From NCBI RefSeq assembly GCF_035920345.1, contig NZ_CP109149.1:6572001-6636000 (forward strand): 64,000 nucleotides of DNA. The letters run 5' to 3'. How positions within the stretch are numbered: the first letter of the stretch is position 1; each line of letters opens with the position of its first letter. Of this stretch, positions 26,812 through 42,915 are shown in pieces. Under the pieces are notes generated by a model. That model searched no databases. It was not told where the DNA came from and saw nothing but the letters and a program-made list of their open reading frames with translations. The position numbers and the translations under genes were made by a program. Source of the DNA: Nocardia vinacea (GTDB lineage: Bacteria; Actinomycetota; Actinomycetes; Mycobacteriales; Mycobacteriaceae).

Positions 26812-26884
26812 AGCCGCCTGGGGGAATCGAACCCCCGACCTTTTCATTACGAGTGAAGCGCTCTACCGACTGAGCTAAGGCGGC
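26812..26884 (-). tRNA. tRNA-Thr (anticodon CGU)
   Basis: The minus strand folds as a 73-nt cloverleaf. The acceptor stem is GCCGCCU paired with AGGCGGC, the D-arm is GCUC...GAGC, the anticodon loop CUCGUAA gives CGU, and the T-arm is GGGGG-UUCGAUU-CCCCC. It reads ACG, a frequent Thr codon in high-GC genomes. The CCA end is not encoded. Confidence 0.95.
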
Positions 26885-37453: not shown

Positions 37454-38116
37454 TCACAGCAGTCCGCCTCCGAGGACGCGGCCGGCGAGGCCGACTACTA
37501 CGGGGACGATGCCGAGGCAGACGAAGGCTGGGAGGAAGCAGAGGCCTAAGGGGCCGCCTATGAGGACTCCGGCGCGTTCGGCGCGGGCGGCGGCCGCATC
37601 TTCGACTCCGCTGCGGCGCTGTTCTGCCAGTTCGCCGATGGCGCTGGCGAGCGAGGCGCCGGAGCGGGCGGAGCGCCGGGCCATGCGTGCCAGTGAGTCG
37701 ACCTCCTCGGCACCCGGTTGGTCTGCGCCGTCGCGCGCCACCTGATCCCAGGCGGTTGCCGCGTCCGCACCCAGTGCCAGCAGGTCGGCTGCCTTGCGTA
37801 ATGCCGCGCCCAGGGCTGGCGGCGCGCTCGGTGCCACCGCGCGGGCTGCAGATGCCATCGGCAATCCGGCTCGTAGGCAGGCGGCCAGCAGGTCGAATAT
37901 CGAGGCTATGGCCAGCGGATCGCTGTTGGTGCCGCGTGGAGATGACGGGGCGACCGGCTGTGGGCCCGCCTCTCGCAGCGTCCGCAATCGCCGATTCACC
38001 GCAACTCGTCCGGGCAGCACGAACAATGCCATTGCGAGCAAAAGCACTGGTGCACTGGACATTCCAGCCATACGCAAACCCTTCGAAACTGTGTATAACC
38101 AGCAGATTTGATTCAT
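37454..38116 (-). CDS. tadC: TadC-like type II secretion F-domain protein
   Basis: A 220-residue inner-membrane platform protein of the Tad pilus (Rv3657c type). It has an N-terminal helix (APVLLLAMALFVLPG), a cytoplasmic T2SSF helical domain with SIFDLLAACLRAGLPMASA, and two C-terminal helices ending in GLAGRVLGGGLL. ATG 38116 overlaps the tadB stop (ATGA) and has AAAGG upstream; an inner ATG at 38071 with AAGGG is a good alternative giving 205 residues. Confidence 0.85.
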   Translation of the reverse strand: MNQICWLYTVSKGLRMAGMSSAPVLLLAMALFVLPGRVAVNRRLRTLREAGPQPVAPSSPRGTNSDPLAIASIFDLLAACLRAGLPMASAARAVAPSAPPALGAALRKAADLLALGADAATAWDQVARDGADQPGAEEVDSLARMARRSARSGASLASAIGELAEQRRSGVEDAAAARAERAGVLIGGPLGLCFLPAFVCLGIVPVVVGLAGRVLGGGLL

Positions 38117-38904: not shown

Positions 38905-39116
38905 CGACCGAGCCGTTCGCCGACCAGGCACCGCGACGGTGCCATCCGACCAGCAATTCCCGAGTGCACCGCTGCCGCGATCAGGCTGGACCGCAACGCT
39001 GCCGGAGTCGCGTCCACAAGGAGCACCGGCACCGCATCCGACGACGGGGCCGCAAGCACGCGCGACAACGAAGCCGTCCGGGTTATGAGCGCTGTGCGCT
39101 GCATTCCCGCATTCAC
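38901..39116 (-). CDS. Small protein encoded between cpaF and tadB
   Basis: A 71-residue frame that starts at GTG 39116, overlapping the cpaF stop by 4 bp (GTGA), and ends overlapping the tadB ATG by 4 bp (ATGA). Its sequence (SLSRVLAAPSSDAVPVLLVD, then RSSLIAAAVHSGIAGRM) is soluble-looking with G/C-rich third positions at about 70%. I recognise no family and know of no counterpart in the M. tuberculosis locus. The double overlap argues for real translation. Confidence 0.55.
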   Translation of the reverse strand: MNAGMQRTALITRTASLSRVLAAPSSDAVPVLLVDATPAALRSSLIAAAVHSGIAGRMAPSRCLVGERLGR

Positions 39117-40300
39117 CGGTCGAGCCGTTCGTCGAGGAGGCGAATGAGGGTGGGGGCGGCCGGGGTGGGGGCTTGGTCGGAGTGCCAGGCGGCGGTTATG
39201 GTGACGCGGCCTTGGGGGTCGCGGTCTACGATGCCGATTTCGCGGAGGCCACGGGAGCCGTCGGCTCGGCGGTGGACGTGCAGCACTACCTGGACTGCTG
39301 CGGCGAGTTGGCTGTGGAGGGCGGCTCGGTCCATACCGCCCAGTGCGGCAAGGGCTTCCAGACGGGCGGGGACCTCGCGTGGTGAGTTCGCGTGGACCGT
39401 GCCCGCGCCGCCGTCGTGGCCGGTGTTCAGGGCGGTCAGGAGGTCGACTACCTCCGCGCCACGAACTTCGCCGACGACGATTCGGTCGGGGCGCATTCGC
39501 AGGGCCTGCCGGACAAGATCGCGGACGGTTACCGCGCCGACGCCCTCTACGTTCGCGGTGCGCGCGACCAGGCGCACGACGTGGGGATGTGGGGGTGCCA
39601 GTTCGGCGGCGTCTTCGACGCAGATGATGCGTTCGTCGGCGGCGACCTTGGCCAGTAGGCCGGACAAGAGCGTTGTCTTGCCCGCGCCGGTTCCACCGAC
39701 CACCAGGAAGGCGAGTCTGGCCCGAATGATCTGCTCCAGTAGAAGTTTCGCGTCGGCGGGTACCGCGCCCGCCGCGGCGAGCGCATCCAGTCCCTGTGTC
39801 GCCGGACGCAGCACGCGTAGCGACAGGCAGGTGCCGCCGTGTGCCACCGGCTCCAAGACCGCGTGCAGCCGGACTCCGAACGAATCCCCCAGTGCCGCTT
39901 CCCTTCCGGATAACCGGCCGTCGACCCACGGTTGTGCGTCGTCGAGCCGCCGCCCGGCCGACAGCGCCAACCGCTGTGCCAAGCGGCGCACCGCAGCCTC
40001 ATCCGGAAAGGCGACCGAGGTTCGTTCCAGCCCACGGCCCCGGTCGATCCACACCGCATCCGGCGCAGTCACCAACACATCGGCGACCCGGGGATCCTGC
40101 AGCAGCGGCTCCAACAGCCCCGCTCCGGTCATCTCGGTCTGCAACAGCCGCAATGCCCGCAGCAGATCGGTATCACCGAGTACACCACCGGCCTCGGCTC
40201 GGATAGCAGCCGCCACCTGCGCCGGATCCGGATCTCCCGACGCACCGGACAGCCGTTCCCGCACCCGATCCATCAACTCCGACGTAACCAACGCACTCAC
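39113..40300 (-). CDS. cpaF: TadA/CpaF-type secretion ATPase
   Basis: A 395-residue hexameric ATPase that powers Tad pilus assembly (Rv3659c type). Walker A is VVGGTGAGKTTLL, the Asp box is ICVEDAAEL, Walker B is RIVVGEVRGAEVVDLL and the His box is GTVHANSPREV. GTG 40300 overlaps the stop of the preceding small gene (GTGA). The C-terminal end is coupled to the next small gene in the same way. Confidence 0.93.
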   Translation of the reverse strand: MSALVTSELMDRVRERLSGASGDPDPAQVAAAIRAEAGGVLGDTDLLRALRLLQTEMTGAGLLEPLLQDPRVADVLVTAPDAVWIDRGRGLERTSVAFPDEAAVRRLAQRLALSAGRRLDDAQPWVDGRLSGREAALGDSFGVRLHAVLEPVAHGGTCLSLRVLRPATQGLDALAAAGAVPADAKLLLEQIIRARLAFLVVGGTGAGKTTLLSGLLAKVAADERIICVEDAAELAPPHPHVVRLVARTANVEGVGAVTVRDLVRQALRMRPDRIVVGEVRGAEVVDLLTALNTGHDGGAGTVHANSPREVPARLEALAALGGMDRAALHSQLAAAVQVVLHVHRRADGSRGLREIGIVDRDPQGRVTITAAWHSDQAPTPAAPTLIRLLDERLDR

Positions 40301-40572
40301 CGCGAACCCCTCCCAACCGAAGCGGCAAGAACCTGCCGCAACGTCCGGCGCATCGCCCACGCACTCGAAGCCGCAGATCGCCCAGCACCGAGCACCTCAT
40401 CCGACAGCGCAGATCGCCCCATGCCGAGCACCGTCGGGACAGCGCACGCGGCGTTCCGATACCGCTGCAGCAGCTCGTATTCCATCGGCGCACGCGCCCC
40501 ACCACGGCGCACCGGATTCTCACGCACCGCCGCGCGGACCCGAAACGACGGCTGGGACGTCGACGCACTCAT
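40297..40572 (-). CDS. Small Arg/Ala-rich protein encoded between ssd and cpaF
   Basis: A 91-residue frame starting at ATG 40572, which overlaps the ssd stop by 4 bp (ATGA), and ending on the GTG of cpaF (GTGA). Basic, with MEYELLQRYRNAACAVPTVL in the middle and no clear domain or membrane segment. I know of no equivalent in the mycobacterial locus. The overlaps on both sides support translation as part of the operon. Confidence 0.5.
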   Translation of the reverse strand: MSASTSQPSFRVRAAVRENPVRRGGARAPMEYELLQRYRNAACAVPTVLGMGRSALSDEVLGAGRSAASSAWAMRRTLRQVLAASVGRGSR

Positions 40573-41678
40573 CGCAGCGCCTTCCCGGCCGGAGCGCTGA
40601 GCACCCCGAGCACTGCGTCCGCAGCGTCGCGGAGAGGCCCGCGGCGCAAAGTAAGCCCGCCGCGTTCGAGGCGGGCGGCCAGTCCGGGTTGGGTTCGGAC
40701 GGCGGCTAGGAGGGGGAGGTCGAGGACCTCGGCGACCTCCGGGCCGCGGAGTCCGCCGGGTGCCGGGCCGCGGACTACCAAGCCCTGGTTGGGATTTCGC
40801 TTACCGATATGAGCGGCGACCGATTCGGCGGCGGCTACGGCGCGCAGGCGGGCGGGGACGACCAGGACGACGAGGTCGGCCGCGTCGAGTATCTGGTCGG
40901 CGTGGGGGCCGCGTTCGCCCGAGATGTCGCATATCACCAAATCGCCTGCGGCACGGCCCGCTTCGATGACGGCGCGGACGGCGGCAGCGCCGATTTCGGC
41001 GGGCAAGCGTCCGGCACCGCCGCGGCCGCAGGACAGCACCGCCAGTCCCGGGACGGCTGCCGGCAGTGCGCTGTGCAGTGCGGCGGCCGACACCCGACCG
41101 TCCTCGATCACCAGATCCGGCCAGCGCAGTCCGGCCCTGGTTTCGATGCCGAGCAGCAGGTCGAGACCGCCGCCGAGGGGTGCGCCGTCGACGAGCACGG
41201 TGTCGCGCCGGAACCGCTCGGCGGCGGATCGCAGTCCGGTCGCCGCGGCCAATGTAGAGGCGCCCGCACCGCCGCTCGCACCCGCGATCGCGACGACAAC
41301 ACCGTCACCCACGCGATATTCGCCGTGCTCAGCAAACTTCTCGATAAGTCCGACCGCGGCACCGGGCAGCGCGATGACACGCTCGGCACCGACAGCCGCG
41401 GCGGCCTGCCAATCGGTCAATCCGGGCTCCCCGTCTGTCACCAACACGATGCCGATCCGTCGGAGGTAACCGGCCCGTGCACAGCTCTCGGCCGCCCCCG
41501 TGTCGAGGATCACCAGAGGTGCCGCCACCCAGGCGTGCCGACCGACAGAGAGCGCGCGCTCGTCGAGCGCGCGCTCTGCGGCCGCCGCGACCCGGCGCAC
41601 CTCATCGCGCAGCCGGGTGTCCTGGATGAGCACGAGCGCGGGCGGCGGTGTGAGTGCCGGGGCGGCTTCGAGATTCAT
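40569..41678 (-). CDS. ssd: Septum site-determining protein, CpaE/MinD-like
   Basis: A 369-residue member of the septum site-determining (Rv3660c) family. The N-terminal receiver-like part (ALVLIQDTRLRDEVRRVA) is followed by a MinD/ParA-type domain with a deviant P-loop GASGGAGASTLAAA (no signature Lys) and DTVLVDGAPLGGGLDLLLG. In M. tuberculosis Ssd influences septum placement; in Tad loci CpaE-type proteins position the pilus. First gene of a run of 4-bp-overlapping genes that reaches tadC. Two DnaA boxes lie 53-79 bp upstream of its start. Confidence 0.88.
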   Translation of the reverse strand: MNLEAAPALTPPPALVLIQDTRLRDEVRRVAAAAERALDERALSVGRHAWVAAPLVILDTGAAESCARAGYLRRIGIVLVTDGEPGLTDWQAAAAVGAERVIALPGAAVGLIEKFAEHGEYRVGDGVVVAIAGASGGAGASTLAAATGLRSAAERFRRDTVLVDGAPLGGGLDLLLGIETRAGLRWPDLVIEDGRVSAAALHSALPAAVPGLAVLSCGRGGAGRLPAEIGAAAVRAVIEAGRAAGDLVICDISGERGPHADQILDAADLVVLVVPARLRAVAAAESVAAHIGKRNPNQGLVVRGPAPGGLRGPEVAEVLDLPLLAAVRTQPGLAARLERGGLTLRRGPLRDAADAVLGVLSAPAGKALR

Positions 41679-41730
41679 GCAGGTCAGCGTGCTCGAAGAC
41701 GAAGCCGAGCAGAAGATGCAATATGCCGAA

Positions 41731-41757
41731 TGTGGATAACTCGGGGGGTGTGGATAA
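41731..41757 (-). promoter_or_regulatory. Two perfect DnaA boxes
   Basis: TGTGGATAA occurs at 41731-41739 and again at 41749-41757, which on the minus strand is TTATCCACA twice, the exact consensus DnaA box, in the same orientation with 9 bp between. They lie in the divergent ssd-HAD region, just upstream of ssd. They could make the ssd/tad operon respond to DnaA or titrate it. Confidence 0.7.
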
Positions 41758-41774
41758 ATCCGGAGGCCCGAAAC

Positions 41775-41886
41775 CGGGGAAACCTACCCCGAAATAGAGG
41801 ACGGCCCCAGCCGGGGGGGGAGGAGGCTGGGGCCGTCGGGTTCAGCCCCGGGGGGTCGGGCTGAACGCGCCTGGACTATGTCCAGG
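41775..41886. repeat. Row of four perfect hairpins
   Basis: Within 112 bp there are CGGGG/CCCCG (41775-41791), a 12-bp stem ACGGCCCCAGCC/GGCTGGGGCCGT (41801-41836) with an eight-G loop run, a 9-bp stem GTTCAGCCC/GGGCTGAAC (41840-41866), and a 7-bp stem CCTGGAC/GTCCAGG (41870-41886). The stems do not overlap. They sit between the DnaA boxes and the HAD phosphatase gene, so they are not simply gene-end terminators. Confidence 0.75.
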
Positions 41887-42033
41887 TGCCAGCAATACTA
41901 CACCCAAGCCCGGGCCACAACGCAAGTCTGTATTCGGAGAACTTTGTGGCCACCACCGGCCCGGCGTCCCCGGGGCAAACCCGCCGAACGAACCAGACGC
42001 GCGACCCGTCCGACAGCGTCGCCGCGGCATGCA

Positions 42034-42039
42034 TATTCT
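42034..42039 (+). promoter_or_regulatory. Possible -10 box of a leaderless HAD transcript
   Basis: TATTCT lies six bases before the GTG at 42046 and no Shine-Dalgarno is visible. This spacing would put the transcription start on the start codon, a common arrangement in Mycobacteriales. Confidence 0.35.
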
Positions 42040-42045
42040 GAACGA

Positions 42046-42915
42046 GTGACGGCCGATGGCGACCAGACAGAGCTCGAGGACCAGACGGCACGGGACGTGA
42101 CGGCAACGGAGCGACCGAGCGCCGGTGGCGAGCGCGTAGCCGCTTTCTTCGATCTCGACAAGACGGTGATCGCGAAATCGAGCACCTACGTGTTCAGTAA
42201 GCCCTTCTACGCACAGGGCCTGCTGAACCGGCGCGCGGTGCTGGAGAGCAGTTACGCCCACTTCCTGTTCATGCTCTCGGGCGCCGACCACGATCAGATG
42301 GAGCGCATGCGCGCCAATCTGACGAATATGGTCGCGGGCTGGGATGTCGAGCAGGTGAAATCCATTGTGGCCGAGACACTTCACGAACTCGTCGACCCGC
42401 TGATCTATGCCGAGGCCGCGGATCTCATTGCCGACCACAAGATCCGGGGACACGATGTGGTGATCGTCTCGGCCTCGGGCGAGGAGATCGTCGGTCCGAT
42501 CGCCGAGGTGCTGGGCGCCTCGCATACCGCGGCGACCCGAATGGTGGTCGAGGACGGCCGCTACACCGGCGAGGTCGAATTCTATTGCTACGGTGCGGGT
42601 AAGGTGACCGCGATCGAAAAGCTCGCCGCCACTGAGGGTTACGATCTCTCGCGGTGTTATGCCTACTCCGATTCGGTGACCGATCTACCGATGCTGAGCG
42701 CGGTGGGGCATCCGACGGCGGTGAACCCGGATCGCAATCTGCGACGCGAAGCGGTGGCCAAGGGCTGGCCGATTCTCACGTTCTCCAACCCGGTCTCGCT
42801 GTGGGCGCGCTTCCAGAGTCCGTCGTCGACCACCCTTGCCGCGACGGCGGCGGTCGGGCTGAGCGCGGTGCTGGCCGGTGCGATCAGCTACCGGCTGTTG
42901 CGCCGGCGCCGCTGA
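42046..42915 (+). CDS. HAD-superfamily (SerB-like, IB) phosphatase
   Basis: A 289-residue protein equivalent to Rv3661. The HAD motif I is FFDLDKTVI, motif II Ser/Thr is in VIVSASGEE, and the C-terminal motifs are in CYAYSDSVTDLPML. A hydrophobic segment close to the C-terminus (TLAATAAVGLSAVLAGAI) followed by RRRR suggests a membrane anchor. The natural phosphate ester is unknown; homologues annotated as serine phosphatase-like. Start at GTG 42046 matches the family. Confidence 0.88.
   Translation: MTADGDQTELEDQTARDVTATERPSAGGERVAAFFDLDKTVIAKSSTYVFSKPFYAQGLLNRRAVLESSYAHFLFMLSGADHDQMERMRANLTNMVAGWDVEQVKSIVAETLHELVDPLIYAEAADLIADHKIRGHDVVIVSASGEEIVGPIAEVLGASHTAATRMVVEDGRYTGEVEFYCYGAGKVTAIEKLAATEGYDLSRCYAYSDSVTDLPMLSAVGHPTAVNPDRNLRREAVAKGWPILTFSNPVSLWARFQSPSSTTLAATAAVGLSAVLAGAISYRLLRRRR

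Follow-up and report, generated by a model that had tools for sequence, protein, structure and literature searches.

A phased pair of DnaA-box-like sequences upstream of ssd-tad as a candidate operator of a natural-transformation regulon in Actinomycetes

In a 64-kb stretch of Nocardia DNA (hereafter the window), two exact copies of TTATCCACA lie between the end of a 6C small RNA gene and the start codon of ssd (41678), both on the minus strand, which is the coding strand of ssd, and both pointing at ssd, with a start-to-start distance of 18 bp. Judging from comparative sequence data, the pair is very probably an operator, and we consider it likely that it serves the ssd-tad promoter as part of a natural-transformation regulon of the Actinomycetes. 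The boxes and the protein-coding genes around them are as follows:

41749..41757, minus strand: distal box, exact match to TTATCCACA; its counterpart is conserved in relatives
41731..41739, minus strand: proximal box, exact match to TTATCCACA, 52 nt upstream of the ssd start codon (41678)
40569..41678, minus strand: ssd (cpaE/tadZ homologue), 369 aa; TIGR03815, 356 bits against a cut-off of 154.45; no Pfam family
39113..40360, minus strand: tadA-like ATPase; TIGR03819, 524.5 bits against 373.15; PF00437
38113..38931, minus strand: tadB-like membrane protein; PF00482, 27.5 bits against 25.2
37454..38104, minus strand: tadC-like membrane protein, start approximate; PF00482, 57.1 bits
42046..42915, plus strand: divergent HAD-IB hydrolase; TIGR01490, 220.6 bits against 98.3
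42034-42039, plus strand: TATTCT, which by eye may be the -10 element of the HAD-IB gene

By its profile matches, ssd is a member of the CpaE/TadZ family of the Tad pilus and heads a tad operon: the TIGR03815 score lies above the cut-off and the adjoining gene matches TIGR03819. Among named proteins, it is nearest to the ssd of N. vinacea (98%) and Nocardia pseudovaccinii (96%), which places the organism in Nocardia. The gap upstream of it is divergent, as had been stated in the original prediction on this DNA, with ssd on the minus strand and the HAD-IB gene on the plus strand, the GTG start of the latter at 42046 being our own reading. Elsewhere in the window, a tRNA gene (71.2 bits) was located at 26812-26884 on the minus strand.

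The claim that two such boxes so close together exceed chance was borne out. TTRTCCACA has two exact matches in the window against a shuffle mean of 0.31, two being reached in 3 of 100 shuffles. A single TTATCCACA is not rare in the 10.36-Mb genome (22 sites versus 18 for the reversed pattern); the paired form TTRTCCACAN{7,11}TTRTCCACA was found twice, at ssd and at one other place, versus none for its control. A chance origin of the pair is thus ruled out by the shuffles, the reversed-pattern controls and the genome-wide pair counts. The sole other TTRTCCACA pair of this genome (G000:C1:8147081-8147107) is situated 62 nt upstream of a 207-aa ORF without a Pfam family. The actinobacterial DnaA-box consensus is (T/C)(T/C)(G/A/C)TCCACA, and both window copies of TTATCCACA fit it.

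Upstream of the boxes, the same gap carries a row of hairpins, in which two further features were placed:

41796..41869, minus strand: the core part of the 6C small RNA, as covered by the Rfam model RF01066 at 67.1 bits (gathering threshold 47)
41895..41900, minus strand: TAGTAT, candidate -10 element of 6C, read by eye

The covariance-model score above the gathering threshold identifies the two larger hairpins as the 6C RNA, and an extra 5' hairpin extends to 41889. The row contains an inverted repeat that is perfect over 13 bp (41800-41812/41825-41837), a pair of 12-nt arms with 92% complementarity that includes 9 perfect bp (41837-41848/41858-41869) and a 10-nt pair with 90% complementarity (41867-41876/41880-41889). 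Its fold (-63.9 kcal/mol, z -6.5) consists of three hairpins plus a weak stem of 4 bp, and an equally stable fold was reached in 0 of 200 shuffles. The stems of 12, 9 and 7 bp proposed originally were close to those measured; the 5-bp stem can be matched only to the weak last one. Hairpins acting as terminators or insulators were considered and rejected (0 terminator-like sites), and the proposal that they insulate the divergent gene was given up, the hairpins being an RNA gene. A consensus promoter scan of 41600-42150 reported no promoter. Matches to RF01066 occur in 163 of the 201 genomes of the GTDB family. At E <= 0.001, two were obtained in the window's genome, one of which falls outside the window. 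The 6C described here is an ordinary RF01066 member, with two hairpins with C-rich loops and a position upstream of ssd; no difference was seen from the 6C of mycobacteria, B11, for which two C-rich loops are described (PMC10470900).

Conservation upstream of ssd was analysed within the GTDB family in 130 loci, i.e., 129 6C loci among the places listed and the window itself. Matches to ssd were found by tblastn in 122 of them; of the eight loci without a match, seven have another gene behind 6C, and one (L099) stops mid-contig after the box pair. Two Nocardia loci (L042 and L043), in which the match was restricted to the later part of the ssd protein, were left out, leaving 120 anchored loci. 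Sense TCCACA is present in the 200 bp before ssd in 113 of these 120 (antisense in 6) and is the commonest of all 6-mers there; as a background, in 220-bp windows elsewhere in the same loci it was seen in 17 of 1240 (antisense in 30). Two copies occur in 79 loci, with spacings of 17 (7 loci), 18 (45), 19 (24), 20 (2) and 10 bp (1), i.e., 17-20 bp in 78 of the 79, and these 78 phased pairs compare with a shuffled mean of 0.03. No antisense TCCACA pair was found in the 200-bp windows of the 120 loci. In the relatives, the TCCACA core is preceded by Y, Y and R, and the next base is mostly G. The box is present in at least one genome of 24 of the 25 genera of the family, and the pair in 18. In genus g29, which is probably Mycobacterium, only 2 of 14 carry the pair at ssd.

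The outside set was collected with a TIGR03815 probe in the order and class, and comprised 132 loci among the places listed plus two named loci (134 in all). Sense TCCACA was found upstream of ssd in 114 of these 134 Actinomycetes loci, and the antisense form in 18. Conservation in relatives, the check to which the original prediction had been put, thus did not refute it within or beyond the family. Of the 38 outside families, 32 have at least one positive locus, and the main exception is family f33, with boxes in two of its seven loci. The 92 outside spacings fall at 17-20 bp (49), about one helical turn further at 26-31 bp (23) and elsewhere (20), and a phased pair is present in 70 loci versus 0 in shuffles. 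It should be noted that most of the genomes are related and these counts are not independent, a weakness that is partly offset by the sampling of 25 genera within the family and 38 families outside it.

As the boxes come directly after 6C on the same strand, they could belong to the RNA gene, for example as the site of a protein roadblock that ends its transcript. Outside the family, too, 6C precedes ssd in the same orientation in 14 of the 20 loci tested; we know of no description of this constant company. Nonetheless, we regard such a role as highly improbable, since the loci in which 6C and ssd are separated speak against it. In the seven loci with another gene behind 6C, no TTRTCCAC[AC] was found within about 260 bp. 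In three loci (L057, L094 and L111), ssd is 1.07-1.17 kb behind 6C, and in the former two, where a gene is inserted between 6C and ssd, a sense pair stands directly before ssd. By this comparison of gene orders, the pair is linked to ssd and not to 6C, because the inserted-gene loci keep it at ssd. L111 and five of the seven other-gene loci have only antisense TCCACA, 0.7-1.2 kb on from 6C; in the remaining two of the seven, sense copies were seen, as a pair at 1.33 kb in L085 and as one box at 1.2 kb in L056. In G008, one of the five antisense-only loci, ssd starts 1.14 kb behind 6C. Three loci of genus g9 (L072, L087 and L090) carry antisense TCCACA copies 30-31 bp apart, 1.0-1.2 kb behind 6C and near the ssd start (the position of ssd being known only for G008), in what appears to be an inversion of the pair. 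With these antisense cases, part of genus g9 breaks the orientation rule.

The distance between the boxes and ssd is also constrained. An in-frame start codon was found 49-54 nt from the end of the proximal box in 85 of the 113 family loci, in 36 of them at exactly 52 nt; none has it at 56-60 nt, and 17 more have it at 61-63 nt, one helical turn further (11 of these in genus g27). Without any use of start codons, the pattern [TC]AnnnT has its main peak 38-41 nt beyond the box (64 matches in the 113 loci), with a second peak at 49-51 nt (19) and about one match per position elsewhere, the first base being always C. The corresponding element of the window is:

41686..41691, minus strand: CACGCT, candidate -10 element of ssd, at the CAnnnT peak of the relatives, its promoter function being inferred; 7 nt before the start codon

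In the outside set, distances to the start codon are broad, and the -10 peak is the better measure; it was seen at 38-41 nt in 40 of 114 loci, with the second peak nearly absent (2). From these positions we infer that the ssd promoter is weak and probably leaderless, as the start codon follows the CAnnnT -10 element by about 7 nt, and that the pair would lie at about -53 to -79. This is the region where bacterial activators commonly sit.

The pair also recurs at other genes. Genome-wide, its 18-bp form (TCCACAN{11,13}TCCACA, with the reversed pattern as a control) gave 12 sites versus 2 controls in G068, 8 versus 3 in G214, 6 versus 2 in the window's genome (G000), 3 versus 1 in G052, 2 versus 0 in G110 and 1 versus 5 in G422, these totals including three 5'-most sites inside genes (L379, L383, by eye in the dnaA coding sequence, and L396). 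In G214, the genes behind the pair are recA, yraN (UPF0102), ssd and a ComEA-type gene (SLBB, helix-hairpin-helix), together with genes for an SSB paralogue, a DUF559 protein and an XRE-type protein; in G068, they are ssd, a ComEA-type gene, yraN, recA and genes for a SAF/RcpC-type and an AbiEi_4 protein. The window's Nocardia has the pair before ssd, yraN, an SSB paralogue gene and three genes without a clear role, and G110 has it before ssd and a type IV prepilin peptidase gene; the SSB paralogue and the prepilin peptidase were seen behind a pair in individual genomes. Some of the genome-wide pairs are inside genes or before nothing recognisable. Proteins of the AbiEi_4 type (L540, L532, L402 and similar), a DUF559 protein (L380) and a Uma2 nuclease-like protein (L537) are encoded behind the pair, and the AbiEi-, DUF559- and Uma2-type proteins are candidate members of the regulon. 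Upstream of gyrA of G214 (L397), which by eye has an intein-like insertion, three box-like sites were observed.

Based on a test that took genes family by family, yraN is preceded by the pair in 25 of 30 genomes, in 14 of them with the start codon at 51-54 or 62-66 nt; the five without it include all three g29 genomes. In the window's genome, the next gene after yraN encodes a ComM-type Mg-chelatase. For comEA, sampled in 25 of the 30 genomes, the rule was satisfied in 23 (19 of 20 and 4 of 5; the comEA genes of G214 and G068, found through the motif, were not counted), 18 of them with the start at 50-54 or 63-64 nt. Both misses do have a pair: in L487 it is followed by a start codon after 53 nt, and in L437 no in-frame start stands at the expected distance from it. 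The comEA gene of the window's genome is preceded by TTATCCACA and, 18 bp on, by the degenerate TTATCAACA, 63 nt before the ATG. The pair precedes recA in 15 of 30 genomes, among them none of the four Nocardia and none of the three g29 genomes. The recA frames of G197 and G147 (L517 and L518) are about 730 aa long and match the RecA model in two separate parts, as would be the case if an intein interrupted them. One element is therefore common to ssd, comEA, yraN and part of recA, as in a competence regulon.

A longer form of the pair, with a spacing of about 29 bp (27-30 bp), is abundant in G431 (32 sites), G362 (28), G422 (16) and G317 (14), versus 3 controls each; the same form gave 5 sites versus 4 controls in the window's genome and 1 versus 7 in G214. 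Six loci were annotated for each of G431, G422, G362 and G317, and one for G214. Where the ssd pair is spaced by about 29 bp (G422, G362 and G317), the pairs of yraN and comEA are spaced by 27-30 bp as well, though that of recA in G317 is spaced by 16. Such a joint shift of promoters by one helical turn is as expected of a shared protein.

These target genes bear on what the site is for. The theme would be DNA uptake, since ssd belongs to the CpaE/TadZ family and has tadA as its neighbour, and the pair recurs at comEA, yraN and some recA genes. The original prediction pointed instead to the septum, which DnaA may couple to the replication cycle by way of ssd, and overproduced Ssd does cause filamentation in M. 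tuberculosis (PMC3095998). We find this reading very improbable, because ssd matches CpaE/TadZ and heads the tad operon, and the same boxes stand before DNA-uptake genes. Of the proposed DnaA control of the Tad genes, the conserved DnaA-like boxes at the ssd/Tad promoter stand and septum genes as the theme do not.

The identity of the binding protein is less clear-cut, and sequence features point in two directions. The TCCACA core is shared with the oriC boxes of the same genomes (172 copies on both strands in 36.4 kb from 28 dnaA-downstream regions), but spacings there are 9, 32 and 43-45 bp, with 18 bp never and 19 bp once, and the spacing of the pair is thus not that of oriC. A second protein with DnaA domain IV (PF08299) was considered as the binder and discarded, this domain being found in one protein per genome in 14 of 14 genomes. 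In G431 and G362, the 29-bp pattern also matched a TTATCCACAG cluster between genes for a cyclophilin and a DUF881 protein (by Pfam for G362), which by gene order we take to be the counterpart of Rv0010c-Rv0011c. The Rv0010c-Rv0011c region is bound by DnaA in vitro and its homologue is bound in M. smegmatis; the five top regions that the available part of the same DnaA map of two mycobacteria names do not include ssd, comEA or yraN (PMC7738170). The absence of ssd from this map weighs less, given that g29 so rarely has the ssd pair. The domain I dimer of DnaA is conserved across the Actinomycetes (PMC13270200).

On these grounds we put it at an even chance that the binder is DnaA itself. Nearly as plausible, although we rate it somewhat below that, is the same regulon under a dedicated competence regulator with a DnaA-box-like site, such as a protein of the HTH_17 kind or some other small DNA-binding protein that multimerises head-to-tail. 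A strict spacing that shifts jointly at all promoters of a genome and differs from that of oriC would suit such a protein, as would the absence of ssd from the named top DnaA sites; furthermore, in a screen of M. luteus, mutations that raise or change comEA/EC expression cluster at Mlut_14660, which encodes an HTH_17 protein divergent from cpaB and tadZ (PMC8467076). On the other side, the motif is identical to the DnaA box and to the core of the oriC boxes in these genomes, and no candidate regulator gene was found next to the regulon genes; in L393, no HTH_17 gene beside cpaB was recognised by eye among 19 ORFs of at least 50 aa.

DnaA titration had been the other suggestion made originally; such a site, or a DnaA-switch site of the datA or DARS kind, would act in replication with no role in transcription. 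The boxes do match DnaA boxes, and the distance between 6C/ssd and dnaA is 285-697 kb in 26 genomes (some sizes rounded), a proximity to the origin not used as evidence in our main reading. Sites like datA and DARS are dense box clusters independent of a promoter, whereas here only two boxes are found, both belonging to a single promoter and set at a constant distance from the start codon that keeps the helical phase, and the pair is repeated before other competence genes. Titration was accordingly set aside as very unlikely.

In the explanation that we favour, the pair would act as operator for the promoter of the ssd-tad (Flp pilus) genes, within a regulon that extends over the class. Its two 9-mers, which read YYRTCCACA and mostly have G as the next base, would be bound head-to-tail by a trans-acting protein on one constant face of the helix, just upstream of a weak promoter with a CAnnnT -10 element, where the protein would most likely activate; that the operator activates is probable from its position. 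Through the pairs at comEA, yraN and, in some lineages, recA, the genes for the pilus, DNA uptake and DNA processing would be switched jointly, and genes for an SSB paralogue, a prepilin peptidase and others may be included in some lineages. More tentatively, and in our estimate just short of an even chance, DnaA could be the master activator of natural transformation in the Actinomycetes, acting as a dimer on two head-to-tail boxes and tying uptake to the replication state, in a circuit that 6C may join.

Whatever the binder, the pair provides a precise candidate operator, a list of target promoters and the biochemical question of whether the protein bound is DnaA, and it could predict which actinobacteria have a DNA-uptake programme. 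It also offers a possible role for the conserved domain I dimer of DnaA (PMC13270200) and, if the DnaA reading is true, DNA uptake would be tied to the state of chromosome replication. Transformation of Micrococcus luteus depends on tad genes, which in many actinobacteria are found together with comEA/EC; M. luteus lacks homologues of ComK and of most of its cascade (PMC4322843), and the upstream signals and cascade of its competence were said to remain to be identified (PMC12849477, January 2026). A letter search, confined among the M. luteus papers to the available part of PMC4322843, found no published motif. In the open-access literature (subscription papers and preprints being outside its scope), no description of a DnaA-Tad or DnaA-competence operator in actinobacteria was found among the matches listed.

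Several known systems resemble this one in part. The Flp/Tad transformation of M. luteus has the same uptake machine of tad and comEA/EC (PMC4322843). The competence regulons of Firmicutes, those of ComK and sigma-X (PMC8467076), likewise place one element before pilus, comEA and DNA-processing genes, but the element is a different one. In Streptococcus pneumoniae, an oversupply of DnaA stimulates competence (PMC8394987); competence under replication stress acts there via comCDE and stalled forks, and not via DnaA boxes at com promoters. Finally, the mycobacterial DnaA sites outside oriC (PMC7738170) are also DnaA-box-like and intergenic, whereas the sites described here form a fixed pair at many competence promoters.
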